From assembly GCA_016935665.1 (NCBI GenBank), contig JAFGQN010000012.1:1-42954 (forward strand): a DNA stretch of 42,954 bases. Reading direction: 5' to 3'. Origin of the DNA: Deltaproteobacteria bacterium (lineage in GTDB: Bacteria; Myxococcota_A; Polyangia; JAAYKL01). The notes below the pieces were generated by a model. The model was not told the DNA's origin and made no database searches. It saw nothing but the letters and a program-made list of their open reading frames with translations. Within the stretch, counting starts at the first letter, position 1; each line of letters begins with the position of its first letter. Of this stretch, positions 22,507 to 42,954 are shown in pieces. Position numbers and translations under genes: made by a program.

Positions 22507-22525
22507 TTGATGTGTTTCCTTATCG

Positions 22526-24948: not shown

Positions 24949-24951
24949 TAC

Positions 24952-26393: not shown

Positions 26394-27448
26394 TATTTCC
26401 CCCTCTGGCTGTAGTTTTTATCCATCCAGTCTCGATATTTTCCGCTGCGAACGCCGTCAATCCAGGCCGTGTTGTCGAGATACCACTGGACCGTCTTTTT
26501 CATTCCGGTTTCGAAGGTTTCTTTGGGAGACCAGCCCAATTCGGTTTTTACCTTCGTTGCGTCAATGGCGTACCGGAAATCATGACCGGGGCGATCAGTT
26601 ACATAGGTAATCAGATCTCTGGATTCCCCTTTATCGAGGTTGGCCAGTTCCGAAACGATATCGCAAATGGTTTGCACCACTTCGATATTGGCCCGCTCGC
26701 AATTGCCGCCAATGTTGTACGTTTCACCGGATGCACCGTTTTGCACCACGGTCATGATAGCGTCGCAGTGATCGGTGACATACAACCAGTCGCGCACATT
26801 CAGACCTTTTCCGTATACCGGAAGGGGCTTTCGTTCGAGTATATTAATTATCATTATCGGAATCAGTTTTTCGGGAAACTGATACGGGCCGTAATTGTTG
26901 GAGCAGTTGGTGATGGTAACGGGCAATTTATACGTGCGATTCCATGCGCGAACCAGATGGTCGCTGCCCGCTTTCGATGCGGAGTATGGACTGCTGGGAT
27001 CGTACGGTGTGGTTTCCAGAAATTTCCCTTCATCTGTCAGCGAACCGTATACCTCATCTGTGCTGACGTGATGAAATCGCTTGCCTGCAAAATCGGTCCA
27101 GAGAGTGCGACAGGCGTCCAGAAGATTGAGTGTTCCCACCACATTGGTCAGCACAAAATCTCTGGGACCGTGAATACTTCTATCCACGTGGCTTTCTGCC
27201 GCAAAATGAATTACCGTATCCGGCTGATGTTTTTCAAACGTGGCAACAACCAAATCGGAGTCGCATATGTCTACCTGTTCGAAATGGTAGTTTTGCCGGC
27301 TTTCCAGTGATGCAACACTGAGCGGATTTCCGGCATACGTTAATTTGTCAACATTCACAAAGGTGACGTTCGGCATCTTTGGAACGAAATGATTCAGGAA
27401 ATTTGCGCCAATAAACCCACAACCACCTGTAATTAATATTTTTTTCAT
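26393..27448 (-). CDS. rmlB: dTDP-glucose 4,6-dehydratase
   Basis: This 351-residue NAD-dependent extended SDR enzyme converts dTDP-glucose to the 4-keto-6-deoxy form. It has [10 protein letters not shown], the DEVYGSL signature (STDEVYGSL with catalytic Asp-Glu) and [10 protein letters not shown]. The start at 27448 has GGGAC upstream and gives the family N-terminus MKKILITGG; the in-frame ATG at 27472 has its ribosome site too close. This is the first gene of the rml operon and is divergent from the glycosyltransferase at 27794. Also called rfbB. Confidence 0.95.
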
Positions 27449-27793
27449 GTTTTGTCCCGAGTTAAAATTCATCCTGCCAATTTTTTAAAGAAAATCAGAT
27501 GATTAAAAAATATCCATCGTTCATACAAGCAGAATTTTGACTGTTGTCAGATTTTCATAACTTTAAATAATTATCGATTCCTATATTTGCGAGATATAGC
27601 GCGAACGGGAAAAAGACAAGGAGGAAATGGCGTGGGTTATTGCACTCGCGGCAAAACTCCAATGAAAAATGGCGGAAATAATCTTTGACACTGTTGCAAT
27701 GAACGGGCTATGTCTCCCCCTCGAACGATACGAAACGGGCACCAATGGATGTCGAGTGCCGGCAAGTTCAAATGAAGACTGCATAGGTCTAAA
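27449..27793. other. Divergent intergenic region between rmlB and glycosyltransferase
   Basis: This 345-bp region should carry promoters for both directions. On the plus strand a weak candidate pairs TTGTCA (27544-27549) with AATAAT (27566-27571) at 16 bp. The AT-rich part at about 27476-27590 fits a control region. I see no operator palindrome or riboswitch. Open frames in it are antisense shadows. Confidence 0.4.
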
Positions 27794-30004
27794 ATGCATG
27801 CGATTTTATATTTCCTGAAAATTTTTTTTAAAGGTATTGATTTGTCCGGCTGGGCGCCGATAGGGCTGCAGTTGCTGGAAACCAATGCAACCGATGCGTT
27901 GCAGTTTCGCGCTGATTTGGCAGGGAATGCGGATGCCGGCTTTTGTTTGAAACAGACTCTGTCCTCCGGGTGGTACATCATCGAATTTGCCATCGAAAAG
28001 AACGACGCCGACGCAGCAAGACTTTTTTTTAATCTGGGCCATGGATTCAATGAACGAGACTCCATTCTGGTGCCCTATAAAAATGGAATTCAGAGAAAGC
28101 GTTTTTTCCAGATTCCCAGAAAATGCAGCGAAATTCGATTTGCGCCTGTTGAAGAGGGCGGCGAGTTTATTTTGCGGCAATTCAGGTTGAAACGTGTATT
28201 CAGCCTGTTTGCCTGGCACCGAATCAAGCGTAAACTCAAAAATTTCCGGTCAGAACGACTGCCCAAAGACCCGTTGAACGCCTATGAACGCCTTTTCGAT
28301 AAACCGGTGGCGCTGCATTACGATGTGTATCTCAAGGAAATCGAGCCCATGCGCGTGACCCCAAATCTGGCCGCCTGCGATACGGTGATTTCCATTTTGA
28401 TGCCCGTTTACAACCCCGAGCCGGATATGCTTAGGCAAACCATTGAGTCGGTCCTCAAGCAAACCTATCCGCACTTTGAACTTTGTATTGCAGACGATGC
28501 ATCCAGTCTGCCAGGGGTTCATGAGGTATTGAATCAGTTTGTCGACGGGGACGACCGTATAAAAATCACCTTTCGGAGTGAAAACGGACACATCAGTCGC
28601 GCCAGCAATTCCGCGCTCCAGTTGTGCACGGGCAAATATGTGGCACTTATGGATCACGATGACTTGCTGCCCCCCCATGCACTCAATGAGGTGGCGCTCT
28701 TTTTGTGTGATCATCCCGACGCGAATATTGTGTATTCCGATGAGGATAAAATAAACCCTCACGGCAAACGGACAGAGCCGTATTTTAAACCGGATTGGAA
28801 TCCGGATTTGCTGTATTCGCAAAATTACATTTCCCATCTGAGCGTGTATCGACGCGAACTGTTGGAGAGGATAGGTGGCTTTCGGGTGGGATTTGAAGGG
28901 GCGCAGGATCACGATTTGATTCTGCGCTGTGTCCGTGCGTGCAATGAGGATGGGATATTTCATATTCCAAAGATTTTGTATCACTGGCGTGCCGGCAGTG
29001 GATCAACGGCGCTGGCCGCTTCACAGAAGGAATACACTTCGGATGCCGGAATTCGTGCTGTGCAGGAGGCATTGGGAGAAAATGTGGCGTCTGTGACACA
29101 GGGAAAGTATCCAAACACATACCGCGTCCACTGGCCCACGCCTGTGTCACCGCCTTTGGTGAGCCTGATTATGCCCACACATAATGGCAGAGACATTACA
29201 AAACAGGCCATCCATTCCATTTTGTCCAAAACAGACTATCCCGAATACGAAATTATTGTGGTGGACAACCAGTCTGATGATCCCAGGGCGCTGCACTATT
29301 TCGATAAATTAACCCGGCATGACCGGATTTCCGTTATTAAATACCCCAAAAACTTTAACTTTTCTGCCATCAACAACTTTGCTGTTCCGTATGCCAAAGG
29401 AAGCATATTGGGATTTATAAATAATGATATTGAAGTCATAAACGACGGATGGCTAACCGAAATGGTTTCACATGCCATGCGGCCGCAAATCGGGTGTGTG
29501 GGGGCGAAGCTGTATTATCCGGACGGACGGTTGCAGCATGCCGGATGTATTCTTGGTATTGGCGGCGTCGCAGGTCATGGCCACAAGTACTTCAATGGGT
29601 CTTTCCCCGGATATTTTAGCCGCGCTCATTTAACGCAAGACTATTCTGCGGTGACAGCCGCCTGTCTGATAGTGCAGCGGCACATCTTTGAGGCAGTGGA
29701 GGGGTTTGACGAAACCAATCTCGCTGTCGCCTTTAATGATATAGATTTTTGTTTAAAGGTCATTAAAAAAGGGTACCGGAATCTCTGGACGCCATACGCC
29801 GAGTTGTATCATCATGAGTCGTTAAGTCGCGGCACCGAAGATAGTCCTTTAAAATTGAAGCGATTTCAGCGGGAATCTAAATTTATGCAGGCGAAATGGG
29901 GCGAAATTCTGCAAAATGATCCCGCTTACAATGTCAACCTTACGTTGGAGCACGAGGATTTTTCAATCAGCGCCATGAGTGACAAGTATCGGAAGAAGTG
30001 GTGA
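27794..30004 (+). CDS. Tandem GT2 glycosyltransferase
   Basis: This 736-residue protein has an N-terminal domain of unknown type (1-190), a first GT2 domain (about 197-400, with ILMPVYNPE, the metal-binding DHDD at 287-290 and QDHDLILR) and a second GT2 domain (about 454-700, with LIMPTHNGRD, FINNDIEVI and YYPDGRLQHAG). No membrane helix is visible, so it should act at the cytoplasmic face. Tandem GT2 proteins of this sort transfer successive sugars, often rhamnose, in O-antigen and capsule loci. The dTDP-rhamnose genes directly opposite fit that, but donor and linkage are inferred. The ATG has AGG at a suitable distance. Confidence 0.88.
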   Translation: MHAILYFLKIFFKGIDLSGWAPIGLQLLETNATDALQFRADLAGNADAGFCLKQTLSSGWYIIEFAIEKNDADAARLFFNLGHGFNERDSILVPYKNGIQRKRFFQIPRKCSEIRFAPVEEGGEFILRQFRLKRVFSLFAWHRIKRKLKNFRSERLPKDPLNAYERLFDKPVALHYDVYLKEIEPMRVTPNLAACDTVISILMPVYNPEPDMLRQTIESVLKQTYPHFELCIADDASSLPGVHEVLNQFVDGDDRIKITFRSENGHISRASNSALQLCTGKYVALMDHDDLLPPHALNEVALFLCDHPDANIVYSDEDKINPHGKRTEPYFKPDWNPDLLYSQNYISHLSVYRRELLERIGGFRVGFEGAQDHDLILRCVRACNEDGIFHIPKILYHWRAGSGSTALAASQKEYTSDAGIRAVQEALGENVASVTQGKYPNTYRVHWPTPVSPPLVSLIMPTHNGRDITKQAIHSILSKTDYPEYEIIVVDNQSDDPRALHYFDKLTRHDRISVIKYPKNFNFSAINNFAVPYAKGSILGFINNDIEVINDGWLTEMVSHAMRPQIGCVGAKLYYPDGRLQHAGCILGIGGVAGHGHKYFNGSFPGYFSRAHLTQDYSAVTAACLIVQRHIFEAVEGFDETNLAVAFNDIDFCLKVIKKGYRNLWTPYAELYHHESLSRGTEDSPLKLKRFQRESKFMQAKWGEILQNDPAYNVNLTLEHEDFSISAMSDKYRKKW

Positions 30005-30051
30005 GGGGAGGGGATTGAGAATGGAATTTTATAAAAACCCAAAACGCAGGG

Positions 30052-30110
30052 ACCGGGGTTTATCCCCGACTGTGCATCGACCCCGGCGGCAGATAAACTA
30101 CCGCCCTACA
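30052..30110. repeat. Palindromic intergenic repeat-like element
   Basis: Two hairpins stand side by side in the 151-bp gap between glycosyltransferase genes: CGGGG-TTTAT-CCCCG at 30054-30068, and GGCGG...CCGCC at 30085-30105 with AG/CT inside. CCGGGG (30053-30058) can also pair with CCCCGG (30081-30086), and TTTATC recurs as GATAAA. The layout is typical of small extragenic palindromic elements. Only one copy is in the window. Confidence 0.5.
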
Positions 30111-30155
30111 TTCCCACAGCCCGAAGCTCCCATTTTGATAAGGGGATAACATGTA

Positions 30156-31166
30156 ATGAAAACAATACTTTATATCACTTTCAGCAAACGTAGTCCCAGA
30201 GAGTTTCACAGGGATGCCTCGGTGATATACAGGTGTTTTCAGCCGTGCGAATACTGGCGTTCCATCGGGTATCGCAGTTATGTGGTGCATCACGAGGAGG
30301 CGCTGTCGACACCTGTGGATGCAGATGTGGTGGTGTTTCACCGGCCGCGGGCTGTGGGGGATTTTGCCCCCCTTCGCAAACGATATGAAAAATGTCTTTG
30401 CATAGCGGATTACGATGACTGCCTGTTTGATGAGTCAATTCTGGAGTCACACCCCGCATTATTGAGCGGCACCACCAGTCTGCAGGTTTTAAAGAAGCAG
30501 ACCCTGGAATATGGCAGCGCTGTGACCGTATTCGATACGTTTTGCGTGAGCACAGACGGTATCAGGGCGTCTTTGGATCGAATGCTCCCGGGGTGTCAGG
30601 TGGCAATCATGCGAAACGGCATATCCCCGTTTTGGCGAAACCTTGGCGGATTGACGCCGTTGCAGAAGGATAAAAAAATTATCAGCTACTTTTCGGGCAC
30701 TGCCAATCATACCGCGGATTTGGTCGAGCACCTGGATGCCATCGAAAAAGCGGTTGACGACAGAGACGAGTTGGAAATGCACGTTTACGGCCAATTGAAA
30801 CTGAACCGCCCCCTGTCGCACCGATGGAAACGGCTGGAACCGGTGGCATTTCACCACCTGCCACAGCTGATTCAACAATCGTGGATTTGTATCGCGCCCA
30901 TCATGGACAATCCGTTTAATCGATGCAAGTCCGCCATCAAATTTCTGGAATCCGCCACGTTTGGCAGGCCCCTGATTACCCAGCCGCTGCCCGAATTCAC
31001 GCGATTGGCCAATCCCGGATTGAAACTGGTTACCAATGACTGGGAAAGCGCCATATCCGACCTGATGATGCCGTCATCGTGGGATGGCGCATCTGCCGCC
31101 GCAACACAGATTGCCAAAGAGAATCTGGTACAACATCAGATGGGGGAACTGCTGCCATGGATTTGA
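30156..31166 (+). CDS. GT-B-like glycosyltransferase
   Basis: This 336-residue protein resembles short GT-B-type glycosyltransferases found in polysaccharide loci. Recognisable pieces are an N-terminal ILYITFSKRSPREFHRDAS, the stretch CIADYDDCLFDES, ISYFSGTANHTADL (the start of the second Rossmann-like half) and CKSAIKFLESATFGRPLITQPL, which fits the donor-binding helix and the post-E loop. It lies 151 bp after the tandem GT2 gene and overlaps the next gene by 10 bp, so it is in the same unit. Donor and acceptor are not predictable. A minimal ATG-TAA lies at 30151 directly before the chosen ATG. Confidence 0.78.
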   Translation: MKTILYITFSKRSPREFHRDASVIYRCFQPCEYWRSIGYRSYVVHHEEALSTPVDADVVVFHRPRAVGDFAPLRKRYEKCLCIADYDDCLFDESILESHPALLSGTTSLQVLKKQTLEYGSAVTVFDTFCVSTDGIRASLDRMLPGCQVAIMRNGISPFWRNLGGLTPLQKDKKIISYFSGTANHTADLVEHLDAIEKAVDDRDELEMHVYGQLKLNRPLSHRWKRLEPVAFHHLPQLIQQSWICIAPIMDNPFNRCKSAIKFLESATFGRPLITQPLPEFTRLANPGLKLVTNDWESAISDLMMPSSWDGASAAATQIAKENLVQHQMGELLPWI

Positions 31167-31663
31167 CCCCACTGGAACAATGGCAAATGTTGTGCCTGCT
31201 GCAAACCAAAAGGCAGCATCATGAATTGTCAGAATCGGAGTGTTTCGCACTTCATCATTTGCTGTTGTGGCGAATTGGAGACGCGTATCAGCGAATCGCC
31301 TGTGGTGTTCCAACTGAGCCATTGTCGCCATTGTCTATCGAACTGGCTCCCGAAATCATCACCATATCCAGCGAAGATGGCCGCTTGTGTCGGCAGATGA
31401 CCGTTGCTGATGAAAAGGAAGATTTCCCAATTGTGCAGCTGTCGCAATGTACGCTTCTCAGTTGCACAACATCACCAGCGGATTACCGAGATCACTTGCA
31501 CCAAAAAATGCGTCACGCTTTTACCGACTTCACGGGCATTACACCAGAGCCTCTGGCGGCGCCATCAAAAGAACTCAGTTTTCAACGCAAGTGGCGCAAA
31601 TTCCGCCGAGACCCATTGTTGTTTTTTAAGGATTTCCTGATTAAAAATCGTTCCCCAAAGTAA
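31157..31663 (+). CDS. Small capsule-locus protein with RDPLLFFKDF motif, unknown function
   Basis: This 168-residue protein starts at ATG 31157, inside the end of the preceding gene (10-bp overlap), which makes coupling likely. No enzyme domain is recognised. Near the C-terminus is KWRKFRRDPLLFFKDFLIK (about 144-162), a basic-aromatic motif that I associate with tails of several capsule and glycosyltransferase proteins. It may be a membrane-surface or complex-docking segment, which is inference. The rest of the protein, with ITISSEDGRLCRQMTVADEK, looks like a mixed alpha/beta fold. It ends 20 bp before the convergent fcl. Confidence 0.68.
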   Translation: MDLTPLEQWQMLCLLQTKRQHHELSESECFALHHLLLWRIGDAYQRIACGVPTEPLSPLSIELAPEIITISSEDGRLCRQMTVADEKEDFPIVQLSQCTLLSCTTSPADYRDHLHQKMRHAFTDFTGITPEPLAAPSKELSFQRKWRKFRRDPLLFFKDFLIKNRSPK

Positions 31664-31683
31664 CCTGTTTCCTAAACAACAGA

Positions 31684-32721
31684 TTACGACCGTTTCAGAT
31701 ACCAGTCGTACATTTTGCGGATGCCGTCTTCCAGTTCCGTCTGGTATATCCAGCCCTGGGCGTTCAGTTTGGATACGTCCAAAAGTTTTTTTTGGGTACC
31801 GTCTGGTTTGGTGCTGTCGAAATTCAAAGTGCCTTCAAATCCAACCACTTTTTTCACGAGTGCGGCGAGTTCACCAATGGTTGAATCTTTGCCAGTGCCA
31901 ATGTTGATGTGGGTGTTAATTACTTCCTTTTGACCCTGGGTAAGGTCGCTGAAGTCCACATTCCTCAAAATGAACACACATGCGTCGGCCATGTCCTCTG
32001 AGTACAGAAATTCCCTGAACGGTTTGCCGGTGCCCCAGATGTTAACCTCGTCTTTGGAAACGCCGAATTTTTCCACAATGGGTTGCCAGTCTTCTGTTCC
32101 AAGGTCTTTGGCGACCGCCTTTTCATCGCCCTCGGCCATCAGTCTTGCCAAATGCATCTTGCGCAACAGTGCCGGCAACACGTGGGATTTTTCCAAATCG
32201 AAGTTGTCATACGGCCCATACAGGTTGGTGGGCATCACCGAAATGAAATTGGTGCCGTACTGCAGATTGTAGGCCTCGCACATTTTCAAACCGGCGATTT
32301 TGGCAATGGCATAGGGTTCATTGGTATATTCCAGCTCACTGGTGAGCAGGTGGTTTTCTTTCATGGGCTGAGGGCAGTGTTTGGGGTAAATGCACGAACT
32401 GCCAAGGAACAGCAGTTTTTTTACGTTGTGCAGATAGCTGCAGTGCACCACGTTGTTTTGGATTTGCAGGTTGGTGTGAATGAATTCCGCCCGGTATGTG
32501 TTGTTGGCAACAATGCCACCCACTTTAGCGGCGGCTAAAATGACATAGTCCGGTTTTTCCGCATTAAAAAAGGCATTGGTCGCGCCAAAGTCTTCCAGAT
32601 TCAGCTCATTTATGGTGCGGCCAACAATGTTTGTATATCCGTGTTTTTCAAGTGACCGGCGAATGGCACTGCCCACCAATCCCGTATGACCGGCCACATA
32701 TATTTTGCTTGATGTATCCAT
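31684..32721 (-). CDS. fcl: GDP-L-fucose synthase
   Basis: This 345-residue SDR enzyme epimerises and reduces GDP-4-keto-6-deoxymannose to GDP-L-fucose with NADPH. It has GHTGLVGSA, LGSSCIYP (catalytic Ser-Cys region) and YAIAK. TAGGA precedes the ATG. It lies 8 bp downstream of the gmd remnant, in the usual gmd-fcl order. Because gmd is truncated here, the GDP-keto substrate would have to come from another Gmd copy. Also called wcaG. Confidence 0.93.
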   Translation of the reverse strand: MDTSSKIYVAGHTGLVGSAIRRSLEKHGYTNIVGRTINELNLEDFGATNAFFNAEKPDYVILAAAKVGGIVANNTYRAEFIHTNLQIQNNVVHCSYLHNVKKLLFLGSSCIYPKHCPQPMKENHLLTSELEYTNEPYAIAKIAGLKMCEAYNLQYGTNFISVMPTNLYGPYDNFDLEKSHVLPALLRKMHLARLMAEGDEKAVAKDLGTEDWQPIVEKFGVSKDEVNIWGTGKPFREFLYSEDMADACVFILRNVDFSDLTQGQKEVINTHINIGTGKDSTIGELAALVKKVVGFEGTLNFDSTKPDGTQKKLLDVSKLNAQGWIYQTELEDGIRKMYDWYLKRS

Positions 32722-32729
32722 GGGGTATC

Positions 32730-33140
32730 CTACTCAAACCTGTTTAGGATTTTATGGCCACCTTCTTTAAGGTATTTTTCCTTTTTCATTAACGCGATTT
32801 CGCTTTTCATCATATCTTCTACCAGCGCGTCCAAATCGGATTTGGGTGTCCATCCCAGTTTTTCGTGGGCGCGGGTGGCGTCGCCAATGAGCAGCTCCAC
32901 CTCGGTGGGACGAAAATATCGCGGATCAATGACCAGCACTTCGGTGCCTTTTTCTATCTGGAATTCGTCGTTGGTGCACGCGGTCACAATCCCTACTTCG
33001 TCTCTGCCTTCTCCCTTGAATTCAATGGTAATTCCCAGCTCACCAAACGCTTTGTGGACGAAGTTACGAACCGAGGTGGTGACTCCCGTCGCAAGTACAT
33101 AATCGGATGGCGCGTCCTGCTGCAAAATACGCCACATGCC
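32730..33140 (-). pseudogene. gmd: 3' remnant of GDP-mannose 4,6-dehydratase
   Basis: The frame matches only the C-terminal third of Gmd. It begins at MWRILQQDAPSDYVLATG, runs through RYFRPTEVELLIGDATRA and KLGWTPKSDLDAL, and ends normally. The N-terminal Rossmann motif and catalytic Tyr-Lys region are absent. In the same frame the few codons before MWRIL (QRG and upstream) do not resemble Gmd and soon meet a stop, so homology ends at about 33137-33140. The intact enzyme is about 350-370 residues; about 130 remain. A TTG at 33149 could start a short product, but it could not be a dehydratase. The break coincides with a drop in GC content. Confidence 0.85.
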
Positions 33141-33149
33141 TCTTTGCAA

Positions 33150-33570
33150 AAGCTCGATTGCTCAACTGTATAAAAAACGTTTAGTAAAATAATTCATACT
33201 TATTCACAAGTTGTTTGCCCACAGGTTTTTATGAAGTATCTTTTTTACCTAACTGACAAAACGAATAATTGGGTGTTTGAAAAAATGACTTCCCATTTTT
33301 GTTTTTTTGCAATAGCAGAGGTTAGCGAATCATAAACATAAAACGATGGAATGTCGTCATGCAGTATTTTGGAAAAAAAGTACCCCTTTTGAAACAGTAG
33401 GGATACTCATATGGGAAATTGGGGCATATATCGTGACAAAGATTTGTCTGATTGTTAACAAAATTGTTTTTAATGGAAAATTCTAGACAGTGGCTCGTAA
33501 CAAAATATATAATTCACTTTACAACTTGCTTATTTTATTATGATTTATTTTGATAGGAGGCAATAGAGTA
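33150..33570. other. AT-rich junction/intergenic region
   Basis: This 421-bp AT-rich stretch runs from the gmd break to the next gene. No frame of note exists on either strand. It holds a good promoter candidate at 33484-33513. I see no tRNA, integrase site, insertion-sequence end or long inverted repeat that would explain the join. Confidence 0.6.
33484..33513 (+). promoter_or_regulatory. Candidate sigma-70-like promoter for 33571 gene
   Basis: TAGACA (33484-33489) and the consensus TATAAT (33508-33513) are 18 bp apart. Transcription would start about 50 bases before the ATG at 33571, leaving room for its AGGAGG site. Confidence 0.5.
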
Positions 33571-35427
33571 ATGGACGCCCGACTTTGGAAATTTCAGGAA
33601 AATAAAAAATCAAACCTTGTTTCTTCGAAGCGAACAAGCAAAGTCATGAACAAAATAATCATCGTTGGGCATCCCCGTTCGGGTTACAGGGAAATCGAAA
33701 GCCTTCTTATTAATACTGGAATGAGTTCCGCATTGCCCACATTAAGAGAGGGGTTGACCGCTCAGGCGCTTAATAGCCAACTTTGCGAGGCGCACGGCGC
33801 CCCAACGCTTGACGAACTCACCAGCGGCCATGTGGACGACTGGAAGCAACTGAGCATCAGTCCCATTTGGTACAGTCTTGTGCTGGACTTGATTAGAAGC
33901 AATATGAAGCAGAGTCTCTGGGGATGGGCAGATCCCATGGCTCTGTTTTTGCTGGATTTTTGGAAATCCGTATCCCCTGATATAACCTTTCTGCTGGTGT
34001 ATAACCACCCCCGTACGGCGCTTACTTCCGTCGGTGATCAGGCAAACCTCGTAATCGACGAAGCAGGCGTCATATCTCCCGGGCAGGAAATACAAAACTG
34101 GAGGTATTACAATGAAGAGTTGCTTCGGTTTTACCATACAAACAAGGAACAGTGCCTATTGGTCCACGCAAAGCAATTGCAGGAAACTCCTGAAGATCTA
34201 TTGCTGGAGATGAATCCTTTGCAAAACACCCAAATGGATTTAGCGCGGAAAAAATTGTTCGTTGAGGACGTGGAACAGCGGGAAGATGTAATTTTTAACA
34301 AAAAGGATTCTGAAGCACCTGAACCCATTAGCTTAAGTCTTTTTATGCAGGAGAGAGCGCTGGCTCAATCCTGTGAAGATGACTACCATCGCGGCAGTCC
34401 TCTGCAGTCATACCTGGTAAAAGCCTTGCTCAATCATTATCCCGAGGCGTTGAAGCTTTATGACGCATTGCAGAATGAAGCCTCCATTGCATCTCATGTA
34501 AAAGACAATACTGATGTTGGAATAAACATCGCATGGCATGAATTTCAGGAGATTTTGGCGGCGAATGGGCGATTGATAAGTAACAACACATCTATTCAAA
34601 AACAATTGCAACGCAGCCGTGTCGAGTTAGATAAACTCAACAAAACATTCAGTCAAAAACTACTGCAAATTAAGTCATTGGAACAAAATTTGGAACAAAC
34701 CCAGGCATCGGCAGCTTCTCGCAATAAAGAACTATTGGCGGCGCAGAGCTTTACGAATCACCTTTCACGACAAATCGAGAACAAAGAGTTGCAAATTGCC
34801 GGCATGGAAAAAGAAGCACGGAGCAAGCAAAGAAACCTGATGCAGGAAACCGATGTGATATTGAGGCAGTTACATCTTGCTCAAGAGGAGCTGGAAAAGC
34901 TTATTGGGGAAAATAGATATAAAGAGTTACAATTATCTGAAGCAAAAAAACAGTTGAGTGGAATGAAAACACAGCTTCGTGAACAAAAACGACAGCTGCA
35001 GACAAGCTTGAGTCAACATCGAAAAGAAATCGAAAGGCTTGAGGCTTGTCAGAAACCCGTGTTTATGGGAGCCAAGGAGCGTCAGCGAAATGAATTGGTC
35101 TATTTGGTTGGATATACATTGGTCGGATTGAGTCGGTCTTTTGCTAAATGGAAATTGCTTTTTTATCCGATTTTCATTCGTAAATTCTTAGAAGAATATC
35201 TTCTTGATTGTGATACCACAGATAAATGGATGCCTCCTTTGCAGGAATATAGAGACTACGAAGAGGCGATAAAGGCACAAAATCATTTGTCTTATCTGTT
35301 GGGACTTGCCTGGCAAAAAAATCGTAGAAGGTTTGGTGCCTATCTTATAACACCCTTTGCTTTATTCAGCACATATCGCCTGTGGAAAAAACAAAAAGTT
35401 AAGAAAAAGAAGCTGGCTGAAATTTGA
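33571..35427 (+). CDS. Sulfotransferase-like P-loop protein with coiled coil
   Basis: This 618-residue protein has three parts. The N-terminal part (about 25-260) resembles a PAPS-dependent sulfotransferase fold: P-loop IIIVGHPRSGYREIESLL at about 29-46, and LLVYNHPRTALTS at about 142-154 in the place of the 3'-phosphate site. Usual residues are altered (Tyr after SG, Asn for the Arg before HP), so activity is uncertain. A coiled coil follows (about 340-493), then a basic, aromatic C-terminal region (about 500-618) with possible membrane association (LLFYPIFIRKFLEEYLL). ATG 33571 has AGGAGG at a good distance. I recall similar proteins in polysaccharide loci, where they may modify the polymer or control its length; this is inference. 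Confidence 0.72.
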   Translation: MDARLWKFQENKKSNLVSSKRTSKVMNKIIIVGHPRSGYREIESLLINTGMSSALPTLREGLTAQALNSQLCEAHGAPTLDELTSGHVDDWKQLSISPIWYSLVLDLIRSNMKQSLWGWADPMALFLLDFWKSVSPDITFLLVYNHPRTALTSVGDQANLVIDEAGVISPGQEIQNWRYYNEELLRFYHTNKEQCLLVHAKQLQETPEDLLLEMNPLQNTQMDLARKKLFVEDVEQREDVIFNKKDSEAPEPISLSLFMQERALAQSCEDDYHRGSPLQSYLVKALLNHYPEALKLYDALQNEASIASHVKDNTDVGINIAWHEFQEILAANGRLISNNTSIQKQLQRSRVELDKLNKTFSQKLLQIKSLEQNLEQTQASAASRNKELLAAQSFTNHLSRQIENKELQIAGMEKEARSKQRNLMQETDVILRQLHLAQEELEKLIGENRYKELQLSEAKKQLSGMKTQLREQKRQLQTSLSQHRKEIERLEACQKPVFMGAKERQRNELVYLVGYTLVGLSRSFAKWKLLFYPIFIRKFLEEYLLDCDTTDKWMPPLQEYRDYEEAIKAQNHLSYLLGLAWQKNRRRFGAYLITPFALFSTYRLWKKQKVKKKKLAEI

Positions 35428-35546
35428 CATCTCGAATTTTGCTGTTTTTCTGTAGAGAACATGCCATACATTGCGAACAAAATTCACAAATAGTTTTTAA
35501 TTATCATCGAAGCCTGGTAGAGATGAAGAACCTCAAGTCAGTGTAT

Positions 35547-35574
35547 TTGACAAACTGAATGGAACACTTTAAAT
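35547..35574 (+). promoter_or_regulatory. Candidate sigma-70-like promoter for 35682 gene
   Basis: TTGACA (35547-35552) and TTAAAT (35569-35574) are 16 bp apart in the 254-bp gap before the giant glycosyltransferase gene. The predicted leader would be about 100 bases. Confidence 0.35.
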
Positions 35575-35681
35575 GACAGAACTGGCTCTTTTCTTAGGAT
35601 GGATGACGGACGATTTACCGTAATACCTCTACAAGTACGTTAGAGCCAATTTCGCTTGCAACAATAGATAGCGGCAGATAG

Positions 35682-38600
35682 ATGAATAGTACTGTTGGCA
35701 CTTTAAAAAAAGGCAATTTATTATACCAAAATAAAAATTATTCTGGGGCAATCAAAGAGTACCTTAGATTAATTTCTGGAGAACCGAATGCTCTGTCGAA
35801 ACAGGCTCGTTTTAATCTTGGTTTAGTTTCACGACATGCTTCGCGACACGTAAAAATGCTTCCGATAGTGCGGTTGCTTGGCGAGCATCCTGATAATGGT
35901 AGCGCATATACCGATGATAAAGTTGCTGCTTTTGTCGTGCCACGGGAGTCTAGCTTTCAATCTGAAGTTCGAACGATAAACCGACTGGCTCTGTCTTATC
36001 CCGCACAACGAGTCCAGACTCTCAGTTTCAATATTGAGGAATCAATCTTTTGTGGATTGCACAATTTTTATTGGGGCAGTTCTTTTGAAATATTGGACGA
36101 AACTTCCTCTTGTAGGTTTCCGCTTTGGTTGAATGAATCTTTCAGATTGGAGCAGTACGGGAAATTGCTTCATGAATGTATTGCGATTTTAAAGAATGTT
36201 AGCAGGGAAGACCATTTTCTTGATCTTTATGAACAACAAGCTACACCGCTTGATCAAATTGACGAACTTATTCAGAATTACTGCGGAAAAAACCGGTCTG
36301 TGCTGGATGTTGTTTCCGGAAATCAGGACGTTCCAAATGAGATAACAGTGGTAATTCCCAATTTTAATGGTCCTCAGGCTATCTCTAATAGTTTAGCGTC
36401 AATTCTCCGTCATATTAATCATTCTCAAATAAAAGTAGAAGTTATTGTTGTAGAGAGCATGCAGTCGGAAAATTCAGAATTCATTGTGCGGAAGTTTTTA
36501 AAACAACTGGATGTTAAGCAGGTATTTGAATCCGAAAACTGTTCATTTTTTGGCTGCTGCAACAGGGGGGCCAGACAGGCAGCCCACTCCAATCTCATGT
36601 TCGTTGATAGCAATATTGTTTTTTTGTCGGATTCGCTTGCCGAATCGTTGAAACTACTCAATGGAGACAGCGTGGGTGCAGTTGTGCCTAACCTCTCTGG
36701 AGAGGTCATCCGTAACGGTATTGAATTGTTCTGTGGGCCGTTGGGTGAAGAAGTTGAATTGAGCAGGAAAGTTGATTTCTCTTCCACAGCTGGTTTTCAT
36801 CTTGTATGTAGAAAATCGGATTTCTTTTCGTTGGGTGGCTTCAATGAAATCTCGTTCGATGGTTTTAATGATGTAGATTTTTGCCTTCGGATGAAGAGTT
36901 TTCTGCATAAAAAAAGTATTGGCAGCAAAAACGCGGAGTTGCTTGTTCAAGTCGCTAACACGCATTCTTCGGATGGCAGTATTAATAATAGCTCCTTAAG
37001 CTCATTAGGATTCAGGCTGTTTTATTCCAAATGGAGTGAACACCTCATATCCACATCATTGGAAAGCTCTTCATCGACTTTCGTAGATTTTCAACGAACA
37101 CTCATTGAAAAATACGATTATCATGAATTGGTGTCCGGAGAACGAAGCGTTACTGCTGACACCTGGCAAGACATACAAGGTCGTTCAATGGGGGACCTCG
37201 AAGGATTGTCATTTAGAAAAGAACACATTGGAAATGGCATCATAAAATTTTGGGTGGCTCCGTCTATCCATGCAGGATTCGATGGACTTGTAGCTAATCT
37301 CATAGTTGACGGCGCTCTCTTGGACACTTTGTTATTGGAGCGAGGCAGACCAGATGTGGAACGCGCCTTGAAACGTCCCGCCGGTGAGATTTTGTTCACG
37401 TTTCCTCATCAATGTTCTGACGGTGAAATCCACAGTTTGAGAATTATCCTCGAGCAAAATGGTTGTTTTCGCACAATTTTTTCTGAGAGTTATCGTGAAG
37501 ATTGCAAATGGTTAAGAGAGGCGAAAGAGGCAAAGAAACAAAAAAAACCTGTTGTATTTTTTGCGTCTCATAATCTTAAGGTTCAGGGGGCGCAAACGAG
37601 TTTGTTTCAAACAGTCATTGGTTTGAAGCAGTCTTCCGATATTTATCCAGTTGTCTTCTCTCCTGAAGACGGCCCCTTAAGTGAAGCGTACAAAGATAAA
37701 GGCATTGTCGTCATTATTCAATCCTACCCCGGGGTGAGGGGGACAAATGAAGAGCTTTGGCGGGTTGAAATGTCAAGTTTTATAGCTTGCATGAAGAGAT
37801 TGAGTCCCCAGATGATTGTCGCCAATACATTGCAGTCATTTCATACAGCAATTGCTGGGTTAGCGCTGAATATTCCAACTGTTCTTGTTCCTCGTGAAAG
37901 TGAACCTCCACAGTCGTACTTTTCATTCCTTCCCAATTTCATACGTCCCTATGCCGATTCTCTGGTTTCTTGTGTAGATCAGACTGTATTTGTCGCCGAC
38001 GCTACAAGGAAATTATGGCAGGATCAACGAAACAGTAAAAATCACATGGTGATTTACAATGGTCTCGCTACATCTCAATTAGAACAGAAGTTGGCGGGTG
38101 TGACCAGGGATACTGCGCGTTTGTCCCTGGGACTCAAACCTGACGATTCGGTTATTTTAAACGTAGGTACTGTTTGTGAACGAAAAGGGCAGCTTGACCT
38201 GCTTGAAGCAGCGCCACATCTTCTCGAAGGATACAATGGGACGTCGATCAAGATTATAATCGTTGGTATGACGGACAATGACTACTGCAATGCAATGCAG
38301 GAAGCGCTGGAGAGGCTTCCTGAACACATTCAAAACAATGTTATGCTGCTTCCTCATACGAAATCCGAAGGTGACTGTATGGTGCAGCAACTTTATCTTG
38401 CCTCAGATCTTTTCGTGATGAGTTCCCGCTTCGAAAGTTACCCGAGGGTTGTTCTTGAAGCGTTATATTTTGGTTTGCCCGTTATTAGCACTGCCTGTTT
38501 TGGCGTAAAGGAGCAAATCGAGGATGGCAAAAGTGGCTTTTTTTACGAGGCTGGGAATTATTTCGAATTGTCAAAAAAAATAAAACATCTCATCGATGAC

Positions 38601-38714
38601 AAAGTTAGACTGAGACAAGCCTCAAAACATGCTTACGAAAGATATAACGCTCTTACAAGTTACGAGCAAATGGTCGCCGGTTATCGAGATTTGATTAAAA
38701 GATATATGGAGTAG
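35682..38714 (+). CDS. TPR-GT2-GT4 multidomain glycosyltransferase
   Basis: This 1010-residue protein has a short TPR-like start (residues 1-55), an uncharacterised region, a GT2-like domain (about 218-455, EITVVIPNFNGPQAISNSL, GFNDVDFCLRM), a linker with beta-rich sequence (about 490-600), and a GT4-like C-terminal domain (about 622-1010). The last carries ILNVGTVCERKGQLDLLEAA, then MSSRFESYPRVVLEALYFG with the E-x7-E type donor site. In the GT2 part the expected DxD reads DSN (309-311) at MFVDSNIVF, so that module may be inactive or metal-independent. It probably adds one or two sugars to a surface polymer. It lies 10 bp before the next transferase gene and has AT-rich codon use like its neighbours. 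Confidence 0.85.
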   Translation: MNSTVGTLKKGNLLYQNKNYSGAIKEYLRLISGEPNALSKQARFNLGLVSRHASRHVKMLPIVRLLGEHPDNGSAYTDDKVAAFVVPRESSFQSEVRTINRLALSYPAQRVQTLSFNIEESIFCGLHNFYWGSSFEILDETSSCRFPLWLNESFRLEQYGKLLHECIAILKNVSREDHFLDLYEQQATPLDQIDELIQNYCGKNRSVLDVVSGNQDVPNEITVVIPNFNGPQAISNSLASILRHINHSQIKVEVIVVESMQSENSEFIVRKFLKQLDVKQVFESENCSFFGCCNRGARQAAHSNLMFVDSNIVFLSDSLAESLKLLNGDSVGAVVPNLSGEVIRNGIELFCGPLGEEVELSRKVDFSSTAGFHLVCRKSDFFSLGGFNEISFDGFNDVDFCLRMKSFLHKKSIGSKNAELLVQVANTHSSDGSINNSSLSSLGFRLFYSKWSEHLISTSLESSSSTFVDFQRTLIEKYDYHELVSGERSVTADTWQDIQGRSMGDLEGLSFRKEHIGNGIIKFWVAPSIHAGFDGLVANLIVDGALLDTLLLERGRPDVERALKRPAGEILFTFPHQCSDGEIHSLRIILEQNGCFRTIFSESYREDCKWLREAKEAKKQKKPVVFFASHNLKVQGAQTSLFQTVIGLKQSSDIYPVVFSPEDGPLSEAYKDKGIVVIIQSYPGVRGTNEELWRVEMSSFIACMKRLSPQMIVANTLQSFHTAIAGLALNIPTVLVPRESEPPQSYFSFLPNFIRPYADSLVSCVDQTVFVADATRKLWQDQRNSKNHMVIYNGLATSQLEQKLAGVTRDTARLSLGLKPDDSVILNVGTVCERKGQLDLLEAAPHLLEGYNGTSIKIIIVGMTDNDYCNAMQEALERLPEHIQNNVMLLPHTKSEGDCMVQQLYLASDLFVMSSRFESYPRVVLEALYFGLPVISTACFGVKEQIEDGKSGFFYEAGNYFELSKKIKHLIDDKVRLRQASKHAYERYNALTSYEQMVAGYRDLIKRYME

Positions 38715-38724
38715 CTGGCCCCAG

Positions 38725-40287
38725 ATGATTTCTATTTTAACGATTTCGAGAAATGTTGATAACCTAAAATGTTTAGTCGATTCTTTGCCTGCTGCAGCGG
38801 GGGATGTCGAATATGAACTTCTAATATCATGGAATGGTGAACAATCACCGCCGGTAGAGCTATTTGAGTCTTGCGATGTGAAGTTTCATCTGCTTAAACC
38901 TTATAGTTTTTCGAAAAATAATAACAGGTTGGCGCAACTTGCAGCTTATCCAAATTTGCTTTTTATAAATGATGATATAAAGTTCGACAGAAATTGCATC
39001 AAAAACGCCTGGGATGTTTTTTGTTCTGACAATGTGGGTCTGGTTGGAGCCAATCTTCGTTATCCAGATGGCACAATTCAACATGCGGGGATTTTCATAA
39101 ACAATAAGTCATATCCGTTTCATTTCATGAAGCATCAGGGGTCTCATAATGACCCTCGAATCTCTTTTGATATGGACGTGCCTATCGTTACAGGCGCTTT
39201 CATGCTTGTAGATAAAAAGGAATTTCTCCATATTCTTTTTGATGAACGCTGCGAGGTAGCGGCGCAAGATGTTATTTTCTGTTTGAATTATAGGGAAAAA
39301 TTTCAAAAAAAAGTGGTTTACTGCCACAACGCAACAGCTATTCATTATGAAAACAAAACAAGAAAGCTGTTCGATCAGCGATTAACTCCGCCGAACGATG
39401 TCGCGTTAATGAGTGAAGTTATTGACAGGAGCTTTTCATCCAATATGAAACCTTTGAAAAATTACAACAATGTGAGACTTAGAGTGGTTACAGAAAAGCC
39501 CGGGTGGATTATGTATCGAAAAGGCGAAGAGATTGTGAAGCGTCTGGAAAATGCGAAAATTAATGAAGACTATGACGACGCAAATGTTCATTATTACATT
39601 AATTATGGATACTTCAGGAGTCGACCCAAATCGGGACTGGTTGTCGCAAATTTTACTCACTATGATGAGAGCAAACTTGCTGACAAATGGGTGTCTGTCG
39701 CTCATGAGGTGGATCACTGCGTTGCAGTGTCGGAAGAAGCAGCGAGCAATTTGCGCAGATTTGGAATAAAAGATGATAAAATTACTGTTATCAAGGTTGG
39801 TGCAGACAGCTCATTCAAACCCAAAATGGTTTTAGGGGTTGTGGGTAGAGTTTATGAAGGCGGCAGGAAAGGTGAAGGGCTTGTACGGCAGCTTACGAAT
39901 GACACGGAGGTGATGGAAGGACTTAAGATCTTTGCCACGAATGACTCATGGGGCGTGCCGGTGTGGAAATTTAATGATCTCTCTGATTTCTATCTGGCTG
40001 TCGACTATCTTTTGGTTCCTGCGCTCATAGAAGGTGGTCCTGTGCCGTTTATGGAGGCTCTCGCATCCGGGACGCTTGCAATCGCACCACCTATTGGCGT
40101 TATTCCGGAGTTCCCTCACATCGAATATAAAACTGGAGACTACGCGTCTCTCAAAAAAGCGGTTATTCAGACAAGAGATAATTTTTTAAATCATAAAAAC
40201 AGGCTTTCTCAATATATGCAGCATCACAACTGGAGTACATGGGCTAATCAGCATATTGCCTTGTTTGATAGGTTACTTAAGAAATAA
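38725..40287 (+). CDS. GT2-GT4 fusion glycosyltransferase
   Basis: This 520-residue protein begins with a GT2 domain (1-about 240). The nucleotide-binding start is ISILTISRN, the DxD-like site is INDDIKFD (about 81-88), and the shared motif LRYPDGTIQHAG occurs at about 111-122. The C-terminal half (about 250-520) is GT4-like, with a short VVGRVYEGGRKGEGL and VPALIEGGPVPFMEALASGTLAIAPP, where the E residue lies in the donor site. The GT4 part is compact, with a reduced N-terminal half. It starts 10 bp after the giant transferase, so they are one transcript. No good ribosome site is seen, suggesting coupling. Sugar specificity is unknown. Confidence 0.83.
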   Translation: MISILTISRNVDNLKCLVDSLPAAAGDVEYELLISWNGEQSPPVELFESCDVKFHLLKPYSFSKNNNRLAQLAAYPNLLFINDDIKFDRNCIKNAWDVFCSDNVGLVGANLRYPDGTIQHAGIFINNKSYPFHFMKHQGSHNDPRISFDMDVPIVTGAFMLVDKKEFLHILFDERCEVAAQDVIFCLNYREKFQKKVVYCHNATAIHYENKTRKLFDQRLTPPNDVALMSEVIDRSFSSNMKPLKNYNNVRLRVVTEKPGWIMYRKGEEIVKRLENAKINEDYDDANVHYYINYGYFRSRPKSGLVVANFTHYDESKLADKWVSVAHEVDHCVAVSEEAASNLRRFGIKDDKITVIKVGADSSFKPKMVLGVVGRVYEGGRKGEGLVRQLTNDTEVMEGLKIFATNDSWGVPVWKFNDLSDFYLAVDYLLVPALIEGGPVPFMEALASGTLAIAPPIGVIPEFPHIEYKTGDYASLKKAVIQTRDNFLNHKNRLSQYMQHHNWSTWANQHIALFDRLLKK

Positions 40288-40444
40288 AACAGATGTTGCA
40301 ATGGTACGGCTTATACGCTGGCTGTTAGTTATTAAAACAGGACTGGGAACCCATCAGACAGGACTCAGTGATTGCCAGATAGGCAAACAATTCAAACCAG
40401 AGTTTTGAGCATAGAATCTGCTTTGACAGGGGAGAAGGACAATA

Positions 40445-41149
40445 ATGCAATATTTTTTCAGTCATGAGTACAACGTGAAACAAATCGAACAACTGGATGT
40501 GGTATCCCCTTATCAAGTCATTCCCTTTGGGCACAGATGCACATCTGCAATTGTTGCAAATTTCGCGCAGCTTCGAAAATGTTCGCTTCCGTTTGATTGG
40601 ACGATTCCGCTCTTTCCGGGAAAAATCAGAGAGATCTTGCGAAACAATTTTGAAGGGTTTATTCCGGAGAATATTTGTCTTGGTAACGTTGTGAACCAAT
40701 ATGGCGTTAAGCTAACCCATTTCCACGTTCATAATAGTGTTGAGGAAGGCATAGAAACCTATGAGCGAAGAATACGACGCTTTTCAGAAATGATGCAAAG
40801 TAATGTCTACAAATACTTCATATATGTGAATGAGGATTTCTTGTTCGATCCGAAATTTAGAGAGGAAGAATTCAATCGAGCGAAGTTTGACGAGATGTGT
40901 GCTCTGGAAGAATACATTAAAGAAAATTACGCCCATTTTAAGTTCACAATACTATACTTTGATTTTGGGAAACATACTCCGCCAGCCGATTCAAATATAC
41001 TCCCGATTCTATTGAAAAGTACACAATATTGGGAGGTAGACAGACTTTCCCCCTATAATTCGTTTCGAGAGTATGTGGGCAGGATTGCTTCGACGATATT
41101 TAAAAGTGAGCCGTCGGAAAAACTTGAAGGCATCGATTTCCGTACTTGA
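40445..41149 (+). CDS. DUF1796-like putative papain-fold protein
   Basis: This 234-residue protein matches the opening of the DUF1796 (putative papain-like cysteine peptidase) family: VIPFGHRCTSAIVANFAQLR at about 25-44 and SLPFDWTIPLF at about 47-57. Cys 32 would be the family's proposed nucleophile. A later His is seen in THFHVHNS (about 91-98). Members occur in polysaccharide and glycosyltransferase clusters and no substrate is established, so 'peptidase' is only a family name. AAGGA precedes the ATG. It lies 157 bp after the GT2-GT4 gene in the AT-rich cassette. Confidence 0.65.
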   Translation: MQYFFSHEYNVKQIEQLDVVSPYQVIPFGHRCTSAIVANFAQLRKCSLPFDWTIPLFPGKIREILRNNFEGFIPENICLGNVVNQYGVKLTHFHVHNSVEEGIETYERRIRRFSEMMQSNVYKYFIYVNEDFLFDPKFREEEFNRAKFDEMCALEEYIKENYAHFKFTILYFDFGKHTPPADSNILPILLKSTQYWEVDRLSPYNSFREYVGRIASTIFKSEPSEKLEGIDFRT

Positions 41150-41284
41150 TCTTTGTTGGAGCAAGAACCTTGATAGAAGCGACAAAAGTCAAACGAGATT
41201 TAGTGTCCCTTCGTGCTTAACTAGCCTAGATGAAACTACAAACGAATCATGAATGTCTGTAATTGAAGTCCGATTGGAGTGAAA

Positions 41285-42178
41285 ATGAAAAAAACTTTCT
41301 TTGTTTATGCGAATTGTCAAAAAAATCCGCTTATAAAATTGTTTTTAGCGCAACCTGAATTTACGAAATATTTTACAGTTCTCGCGCCGGATTTTCCCCC
41401 CATACATGTTTTACGGCCGAATCATTTGGAGCAACTTCATATAATCCTTCATGATACAGATGTTTTCATATATCAGCCCGTTGTCAATTACGACCAATTC
41501 AATACTGAAACGCTGATGTCTTTCTTAAAAACTGGATGTGAAAAGATAAGCATTCCGTCTATCTGGTTTGACGGTTATACCCCGGAATCGTTTTATTTTA
41601 GGTTAAATGGCACTGCCGCCATTCCACATTTTAGTCCCTATCACGACTACAATATTTTGAAGGCTTTCGTCATGAGAAAAAGCGTGGAATATGCGGTCGC
41701 ACTAATGCAGGGGGATTTTTTCTATACCAAAGAAATGGTAGAACAAACAAGTGCATCTACTATACAGGCATTGAAAAGAAGAGAAGACGATTTGGATATT
41801 CATATTGCCGACTATATAAGTGAATATTGGAAATCAAGACGTTTGTTTAATTCCATAAATCACCCGAAGAATGAAATTTTGCTCCAAGTAGTTGCTCAGG
41901 TTATGGAAAGATTTGGGATTGAGGTTGATGAGAGCAAAAGCCCTGATGACGACCTATTGTGGACCCCTGTAATTCCAATATACAGTTCTCACCCATTTGT
42001 TGAATCCAAACCAACCTATTTCCATCATGGTGAATCAAAGACCAACAAAGAATACGTTATTGCAGCTTATAACAGTTATGAAAGTTATGATCTGGAAGAT
42101 ATTGCCAACCAACTCAGTCACTACGAGAAGAATGTAATTTTAAGCGTTTTAAGAGACAGGCATCTTGAGTTGGGCTAG
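41285..42178 (+). CDS. WcbI-like polysaccharide biosynthesis protein
   Basis: This 297-residue protein starts at ATG 41285, with GGAG six bases upstream (a GTG at 41279 is also in frame). The N-terminus FFVYANCQKNPLIKLFL fits the WcbI family, whose NCQ motif sits in a CoA-binding fold of the SGNH-hydrolase type. A conserved-looking INHPKNEIL occurs at about 201-209. In Burkholderia, WcbI is required for capsule and is thought to acetylate a sugar. The same role is suggested here but unproved. It lies between the DUF1796-like gene and a small TPR-like gene. Confidence 0.68.
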   Translation: MKKTFFVYANCQKNPLIKLFLAQPEFTKYFTVLAPDFPPIHVLRPNHLEQLHIILHDTDVFIYQPVVNYDQFNTETLMSFLKTGCEKISIPSIWFDGYTPESFYFRLNGTAAIPHFSPYHDYNILKAFVMRKSVEYAVALMQGDFFYTKEMVEQTSASTIQALKRREDDLDIHIADYISEYWKSRRLFNSINHPKNEILLQVVAQVMERFGIEVDESKSPDDDLLWTPVIPIYSSHPFVESKPTYFHHGESKTNKEYVIAAYNSYESYDLEDIANQLSHYEKNVILSVLRDRHLELG

Positions 42179-42520
42179 TGAAACTATTTGATAGAATTAA
42201 AACACACACGGTTTCCAAATGTTTAAACTGATGAAAAGTGCAGTGATTAATCATCAAATGAAATAATAGTTACAAAATCGGCAGTTTCGTTAGCCAATCG
42301 AATGCAAGATTTACTACCGGGAATTCAGTGGATTTTATTATCAACTTATAGTTGCCATTTTTGAGAACCTTTCAATTGACAGGGGGCGTCGCACGGAAGG
42401 ATTGTGAAATTTTTGCTATGAAACTGTTGCTGTGGTAGCAAAAAATTGTCTATACAATAAAGAGTAAGGGACAACAGAATCCTTTTAAACTTGACGGATT
42501 CCTTGTTCACGGGAGGAATT
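42179..42520. other. Intergenic region with promoter candidate
   Basis: This 342-bp AT-rich gap follows the WcbI-like gene. The only feature I can support is a promoter candidate at 42427-42456. No gene or hairpin terminator was found. Confidence 0.4.
42427..42456 (+). promoter_or_regulatory. Candidate sigma-70-like promoter for 42521 gene
   Basis: TTGCTG (42427-42432) and TATACA (42451-42456) are separated by 18 bp, about 65 bases before the ATG at 42521. Confidence 0.35.
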
Positions 42521-42916
42521 ATGACCCAAATAGAAGATATTAGAAATCGGTATGATGAGAAATTCCAGCTATCGGAATTCGCCGAAGCATACCAACTTGC
42601 TCTGGAACTCATAAAAACAGATCCTTCAAATTTTGTCAGTTATAATTTAGCTGGCAGAGCGCTATTTCGAAATGGCGACAATTGCAATGCAGAAAGATAC
42701 TTTTTAATCGCCTTAAGTATTTGCGAAAACAACGAAAATTGTTTGTCATTTCTTTCACAAATAAACTTAAATGAAAACAATTTTGAATTGACGATGGTTT
42801 ATTTAGAAAAACTAATCAAAATTAAGAGTAGCTACAAATTAGAAAAAATAAGAGCATTCATTCATTTGTATCCGTCCTGTGAACACGCGCGCGAGAAAAT
42901 TTTTTTGATGGTGTAG
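42521..42916 (+). CDS. Small TPR-like protein
   Basis: This 131-residue soluble protein starts at ATG 42521 with GGGAGGA upstream. Its helical, alternating pattern (AEAYQLALELIKTDPSNFVSYNLAGRALFRNG...) matches tetratricopeptide-type helix pairs; about three units fit. The next gene begins just after it with its own ribosome site, so it may be an adaptor for a downstream enzyme, which is inference from the operon layout. It is AT-rich like the rest of the cassette. Confidence 0.7.
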   Translation: MTQIEDIRNRYDEKFQLSEFAEAYQLALELIKTDPSNFVSYNLAGRALFRNGDNCNAERYFLIALSICENNENCLSFLSQINLNENNFELTMVYLEKLIKIKSSYKLEKIRAFIHLYPSCEHAREKIFLMV

Positions 42917-42943
42917 AGTCATGCCCGAAATGGAGGTGTGACA

Positions 42944-42954
42944 ATGAAAGAATA
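42944..42954 (+). CDS. Start of next gene, cut by the window edge
   Basis: GGAGG at 42932-42936, seven bases before an ATG at 42944, suggests a real gene start. Only three codons (Met-Lys-Glu) are visible, so nothing can be said of its product. Confidence 0.5.

Follow-up and report, generated by a model that had tools for sequence, protein, structure and literature searches.

The window analysed here spans contig C187 from end to end (42,954 bases; JAFGQN010000012.1) and comes from the 8.16-Mb draft genome (249 contigs; GCA_016935665.1) of a Deltaproteobacteria bacterium. Our subject is the AT-rich block of surface-polysaccharide genes at positions 33150–42867, which begins at a truncated gmd gene and is closed by the end of an insertion sequence (IS). 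All six open reading frames (ORFs) of the block, P0001 to P0006, lie on the plus strand, as the initial annotation had stated. The junction and the block hold the following features (GC, guanine plus cytosine content):

31684–32721, minus strand: fcl, GDP-L-fucose synthase (NCBIfam NF047922, 7e-131; 436 bits, cut-off 500).
32730–33149, minus strand: fragment of gmd, GDP-mannose 4,6-dehydratase, comprising the last ~136 codons; the 5' ~243 codons are gone.
33138–33149, no strand: junction, where homology to the intact sister gene ends in the alignment and the GC change point (33142) falls.
33550–35427, plus strand: P0001, 625 residues, with an N-terminal part, a coiled coil and a conserved C-terminal part.
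35682–38714, plus strand: P0002, 1010 residues, a clear two-domain GT2 and GT4 glycosyltransferase.
38725–40287, plus strand: P0003, 520 residues, with a GT2-like N-half and a GT4-like C-half (Pfam Glyco_transf_4, 1e-6).
40445–41149, plus strand: P0004, 234 residues, DUF1796, putatively papain-like (Pfam, 1.1e-6, residues 25–73).
41279–42178, plus strand: P0005, 299 residues, WcbI-like capsule enzyme (Pfam WcbI, 1.7e-44; PDB 4bqn, 4e-10).
42491–42867, plus strand: P0006, a TPR protein cut by the IS (Pfam TPR matches under cut-off).
42868–42954, plus strand: left end of an IS66-like element, with terminal repeat GTATCCGTCCTGTGAACACGC and the start of an HTH_Tnp_1-type frame.

The AT-richness noticed earlier from the gmd break onwards was borne out by measurement. 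GC is 0.403 in 33150–42954 against 0.512 in 1–33149, and the best single change point, at 33142, brings a log-likelihood gain of 182, where 60 block-shuffled versions of the window gave no more than 36. As a genome background we used 60 contig pieces (894,590 bases, GC 0.500); since the location of 20 of these had been chosen, in 15 cases because it matched the IS end and in five for other reasons, the composition test was repeated on the other 40 pieces only (657,861 bases, GC 0.505). In the 352 nine-kb windows of that sample the mean GC was 0.507 with a standard deviation (SD) of 0.019 and a minimum of 0.440, which places the block 5.4 SD under the mean. Among 568 ORFs of at least 150 residues, drawn from the 60 pieces by a mechanical rule, the GC at third codon positions puts P0001 to P0006 at percentiles 9.3, 2.5, 2.6, 3.3, 1.8 and 1.4. 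Equally low GC (within 0.005) was found in three of the 447 nine-kb windows of the 60-piece sample, all within positions 1–11000 of contig C82. That stretch is a second AT-rich polysaccharide locus of the same genome, with Wzx-, Wzy- and WecG-like genes and GC down to 0.38, and it likewise terminates in a variant copy of the window's IS end.

To the left of fcl the window carries a conserved set of capsule genes, for which we infer the names KdsA, KdsB and KdsC from the Pfam matches and KpsC and KpsS from protein size. The sugar 3-deoxy-D-manno-oct-2-ulosonic acid is abbreviated Kdo:

18472–19671, minus strand: KpsS-like Kdo-linker transferase, 399 residues (Pfam Capsule_synth, 1.3e-76).
19661–21733, minus strand: KpsC-like Kdo-linker transferase, 690 residues (Capsule_synth in three stretches, 4.6e-95).
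21730–22584, minus strand: KdsB-like protein for CMP-Kdo supply (Pfam CTP_transf_3).
22526–23101, minus strand: KdsC-like HAD protein for CMP-Kdo supply (Pfam Hydrolase_3).
23102–23938, minus strand: KdsA-like protein for CMP-Kdo supply (Pfam DAHP_synth_1).
24076–27472, minus strand: rmlD, rmlC, rmlA and rmlB for dTDP-rhamnose (Pfam).
27794–31663, plus strand: two glycosyltransferases (the first GT2, the second weakly GT4-like and under cut-off) and a 194-residue protein without a Pfam match; these are the last genes syntenic with sister genome G002.

The rml genes, both glycosyltransferases and the 194-residue protein recur in the same order on contig C96 of G002, with identities of 64–82% for the rml genes and of 43%, 58% and 32% for the three genes after them. 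There they are followed by a 9.3-kb stretch (C96:7655–16984), AT-rich on its left side and with an ORF GC of 0.36–0.45, in which nothing matches the window or the capsule locus of a further sister genome, G001, at E 1e-5. A Pfam scan of four of its proteins gave no match; the fifth, of 1528 residues, resembles a GT2/RgpF protein on contig C180 of our own genome (27% identity over 309 residues, E 1e-28). Beyond this stretch, on the same contig, lie KpsD-, KpsE-, KpsT-, KpsM- and KpsF-like genes with Poly_export, Wzz, ABC_tran, ABC2_membrane and SIS plus CBS domains, respectively, the Wzz domain being just under cut-off. The missing export flank of the window's own genome was found on C180, where KpsF-, KpsM-, KpsT-, KpsE- and KpsD-like genes 83%, 54%, 78%, 52% and 74% identical to those of G002 stand in the G002 order, and the collinearity with G002 continues through the 20 kb fetched. 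The 11 kb past KpsD on C180 hold genes for the GT2/RgpF protein, a Sulfotransfer_2 protein, RfbF, RfbG, RfbH, a ferredoxin-reductase-like protein, an SDR protein and a GT61 protein. RfbF, RfbG and RfbH, all over their NCBIfam cut-offs, belong to the CDP-3,6-dideoxyhexose pathway, which is thus probably encoded there. Contig C336 of G001 has the G002-type right flank as well, followed by different gene content: fcl (77% identical to that of the window), an intact gmd (69% identical to the window's fragment) and, further on, a WcbI-family gene and large glycosyltransferases.

With two Capsule_synth proteins on the left, KpsM/T/E/D- and KpsF-like genes on C180 and a G002 locus in which other genes stand between these flanks, we read the block at 33150–42867, at a probability of about 0.9, as part of the variable region 2 of a predicted ABC-transporter-dependent, Kdo-linked (kps) capsule locus. 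This agrees with the serotype-type region proposed in the initial annotation, which had also suggested comparing gene content across strains. From the export flank on C180 and the sister loci together, the variable region most likely starts at position 31684, passes the IS and a gap in the assembly and continues on C180. The limits first given, from the gmd break to the end of the window, were accordingly nearly right; they set the left edge probably too far inward, counted 87 bases of IS sequence as part of the block and stopped at the end of a contig past which the region continues.

Loci of this kind are already known. PMC10433991 describes E. coli capsule loci of groups 2 and 3 in which conserved regions flank a serotype-specific region 2, a GC of 40–43% in subgroup 3A that is interpreted as pointing to transfer, and, within region 2, recombination as well as a gene interrupted by an IS. 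Our locus resembles E. coli kps in having conserved kpsC/kpsS and kpsD/E/M/T genes around a variable block of glycosyltransferase and sugar-nucleotide genes. It differs in belonging to another lineage, in the rml genes adjoining the linker genes, in the P0001, P0004 and P0005 content and in the fcl gene and gmd stump at its edge. The same layout of linker, variable block and exporter, with an exchangeable and often low-GC middle and IS damage, is therefore also present in this large-genome lineage. What appears mildly new is that the junction falls sharply within gmd, and that P0001 belongs to a capsule-linked family of coiled-coil proteins, possibly sulfotransferase-like. The junction, placed in gmd and at the composition break, also offers a sharply located recombination point with two sister loci for comparison.

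The main doubt concerns this junction, which may be biological or a product of assembly. The gmd piece encodes 139 residues and scores 119.5 bits against a cut-off of 415, so that it is no full-length enzyme, and its homology ends within ~10 bases of the GC change point. A search between 32900 and 33700 revealed no direct repeat, only a 12-base palindrome inside gmd. Candidate gmd remnants in 33150–33550 were rejected: a profile match reaching 33407 adds ~3 bits and contains five stops, and the DNA alignment there looked chance-like by eye. Such a sharp change of composition in a draft of 249 contigs would suit an assembly or binning chimera, in which a capsule locus ending in gmd was joined at 33142 to an AT-rich polysaccharide contig of another strain or species. 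In line with this, the 5' part of gmd was not found anywhere in the genome's own assembly, yet 11 of 12 further genomes searched within the family have a gmd over cut-off, G011 being the exception at 71% completeness. We nevertheless hold a chimera to be quite unlikely. The closest relatives of P0001 lie in a capsule locus of the same genus, together with gmd, fcl and a WcbI-family gene, and the IS end at the right edge of the window recurs on other contigs of the genome (its 86-base stretch at 98–100% on seven and at 90–93% on three more). Both sides of the junction therefore belong to such a locus, probably in the same organism, which favours a biological origin.

The genes of the block are rare among relatives, a pattern that suits a variable capsule region. 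P0001 was found in three of 317 genomes of the class: our own, G001 with real relatives, and G192, where only residues 342–459 match (E 4e-4). P0003 was found in 24 of the 317, the own genome included, and the other 23 match one half only; P0004 was found in two, the own genome and one at E 9e-4. P0005 occurred in one of 59 genomes, the own, with a second copy on contig C223; the distant WcbI-family gene of G001 escaped this search, whose reach is therefore limited. P0002 gave one distant match among GTDB contigs (residues 901–996); among plasmids its top match was a Sinorhizobium record (residues 618–1004, 36% identity, E 1e-61) with no feature listed at that place. Taken together, composition, the sharp gmd junction and this rarity make it likely that the block was acquired by transfer, as had first been supposed.

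The AT-rich variable genes of G002 and the Wzx/Wzy-type locus on C82 indicate that AT-rich sugar loci recur in the lineage, and together with the P0001 relatives and the WcbI-family gene of G001 this would also fit an old, vertically inherited capsule content that owes its low GC to relaxed or different selection. We consider such an origin unlikely, as single-sequence searches found no relative of P0004 or P0005 in the genus, gene content varies among the sister loci and gmd is cut at a single point by the junction.

At the right edge, the IS sequence forms the last ~15 codons of P0006, which was therefore interrupted by the element. The window's IS end is present on nine other contigs of the genome and the opposite end on five. 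When the five right ends were compared with ten left ends, three of the five were paired with a left end by an exact 8-bp flank, against ~0.0008 pairs expected by chance. The element thus shows 8-bp target duplications along with terminal inverted repeats. We call it IS66-like for this duplication and the start of its gene, traits typical of that family. An IS66-like end closing the right side could suggest a self-contained mobile island, either a transposon or an integrative element, with a glycan cassette as its cargo. This is highly improbable: C187 has an IS end at 42868 only, the repeat search around the left junction gave nothing beyond the palindrome inside gmd, there is no tRNA in the window and no integrase among its ORFs scanned, and the IS is a multi-copy element that landed in the TPR gene. 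An island bounded by two IS ends was rejected, since the left junction showed neither an IS end nor a repeat.

Several observations weigh against the reading of the block as transferred material in the variable region of a kps locus. A donor was searched for and none was found. Codon choice, the other half of the check that the initial annotation had proposed, departs from the genome mean only moderately in the six ORFs (percentiles 79–95; unusual, not extreme). AT-richness does not mark the whole region, given that the variable part on C180 has a GC of 0.44–0.50. C187 and C180 are unjoined in the assembly; the end of C180 is not a clear high-copy repeat (one weak match only, to C114 at 77%), and the 8-bp flank of the window's own IS end found no partner among the five right ends. 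The fcl score stays under its NCBIfam cut-off. Nor is gmd a fixed member of the capsule locus: of the nine other family genomes from which the surroundings of gmd were retrieved (G003–G010 and G012), only G004 showed a capsule gene of the window or of G001 beside it, as a weak epimerase match; in G002 gmd and fcl lie near the end of a different contig. In G001 the two genes occupy the opposite edge, on the KpsD side, so that the region was rearranged and not simply replaced.

For a transferred block within the kps locus, the following course of events may be proposed. The left flank would provide CMP-Kdo, the poly-Kdo lipid linker (KdsA/B/C-, KpsC- and KpsS-like proteins) and dTDP-rhamnose, and the KpsF/M/T/E/D-like proteins of C180 would export the polymer. 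The genes between the flanks would set its repeat unit, with P0002 and P0003 building the chain, the WcbI-like P0005 and perhaps P0001 decorating it, and the C180 genes making CDP-3,6-dideoxyhexose and adding a sulfotransferase. Recombination probably brought in the block, replaced neighbouring genes and deleted the 5' two thirds of gmd; fcl and the gmd stump would then be remnants, and GDP-fucose synthesis at the locus would have ended. The IS66-like element would have inserted into the TPR gene later.

Only in part did the block contain the large multidomain transferases that had been announced for it. P0002 is one, and P0003, whose N-half is similar to the GT2 region of P0002 and to long frames in the class, is probably GT2 plus GT4 by sequence similarity; P0004, P0005 and P0006 are not, and P0001 has no assigned transferase domain. 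P0005 is well over the PF18588 cut-off (152 bits against 29.2). Its PDB match, 4bqn, is named in the search only as a capsular polysaccharide biosynthesis protein and is presumably WcbI of Burkholderia pseudomallei. That protein and P0005 share the Pfam family and the link with capsule biosynthesis, and the likeness between them is low (E 4e-10). PMC4104973 describes WcbI as binding coenzyme A and as a putative acetyltransferase. P0004 matches DUF1796 over residues 25–73 only, and almost no relatives of it were found in the class.

The P0001 family connects capsule loci from distant bacteria and would lend itself to assay. The real start of P0001 is probably the ATG at 33646. No Pfam domain was over cut-off in the protein. 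Residues 562–590 of its C-terminal part resemble the O-methyl phosphoramidate (MeOPN) transferase family NF058596 (E 0.0015), a likeness of ~29 residues that is far under the family cut-off; it recurs at E up to 0.1 in three of four P0001-family members tested, with a best E of 7e-6. NF058596 is linked with Campylobacter. The nearest relatives of P0001 are within the same genus, three complete ones in the capsule locus on G001:C336 (pieces L107/L108), where a 1542-residue transferase frame also matches its C-terminal part. Among 72,556 plasmid records searched at E up to 0.01 there was one relative (28% identity over 92%, E 3e-55), on the E. coli plasmid pAL.H8 (NZ_CP082350.1), annotated as "sulfotransferase family protein".

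On pAL.H8 this gene directly follows four export-type genes, annotated as polysaccharide export, ABC permease, ABC ATPase and sugar transporter, and two capsule biosynthesis genes stand at the far end of the locus; we infer kpsD/M/T/E and kpsC/S, respectively, from the annotation. The locus thus resembles ours in layout, and differs in being plasmid-borne and in the annotated products of most other genes of its middle part. It occupies positions 2093–39826 of a mobilizable plasmid, and IS5-family genes occur both within the locus and next to it.

Five aligned members of the P0001 family, all from kps-type loci, have the motifs VGHPxSG and WxWxDP in common. These resemble motifs that bind 3'-phosphoadenosine 5'-phosphosulfate, and the N-terminal part of P0001 may be sulfotransferase-like; profile and structure tests did not confirm a sulfotransferase. 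Pfam and PDB searches with P0001 returned no sulfotransferase match, and hhalign gave no match between P0001 and the C180 sulfotransferase. A sulfotransferase fold was rejected as a candidate: the single-sequence model failed, with a mean predicted local distance difference test score of 34, and was left unused for fold search, and the profile tests were negative. No P0001-like family was among the matches listed in literature searches on MeOPN, sulfotransferase and coiled-coil proteins; PMC13171606 mentions coiled-coil putative methyltransferases in group 3 clusters. As a speculation that we ourselves rate as improbable, the family might consist of distinct capsule-modifying enzymes whose sulfotransferase-like core has changed residues at the donor site, along with a coiled coil that varies in length and a C-terminal part in common with MeOPN transferases. 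Such enzymes would move between the kps region 2 blocks of unrelated bacteria and add a non-sulfate group to the capsule.

The promoters of its own that had been claimed for the block found no support in a consensus scan of 31600–42954, the only test made, in which 14 sigma-70-like matches compare with 24.1 ± 4.8 in shuffled sequence. The best of them (11 of 12 positions) is at 33484–33513, upstream of P0001. An Rfam scan of the window gave nothing at the gathering threshold.

Some further observations concern other contigs of the genome. Piece L046 of C180 (6972–11891) contains the RfbF-RfbG-RfbH genes with the ferredoxin-reductase-like gene and the SDR gene, adjoining the Sulfotransfer_2 gene. 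By their exact 8-bp flanks, the contig pairs C249/C234, C248/C179 and C247/C55 can each be linked through a single IS copy. A diverged copy of the start of the element on contig C21 (L038, 7700–8766) has a first frame that matches HTH_Tnp_1 (25.4 bits, cut-off 24.1); the frame ends beside a secreted-looking protein in which we presume a likeness to ricin-type lectin repeats.

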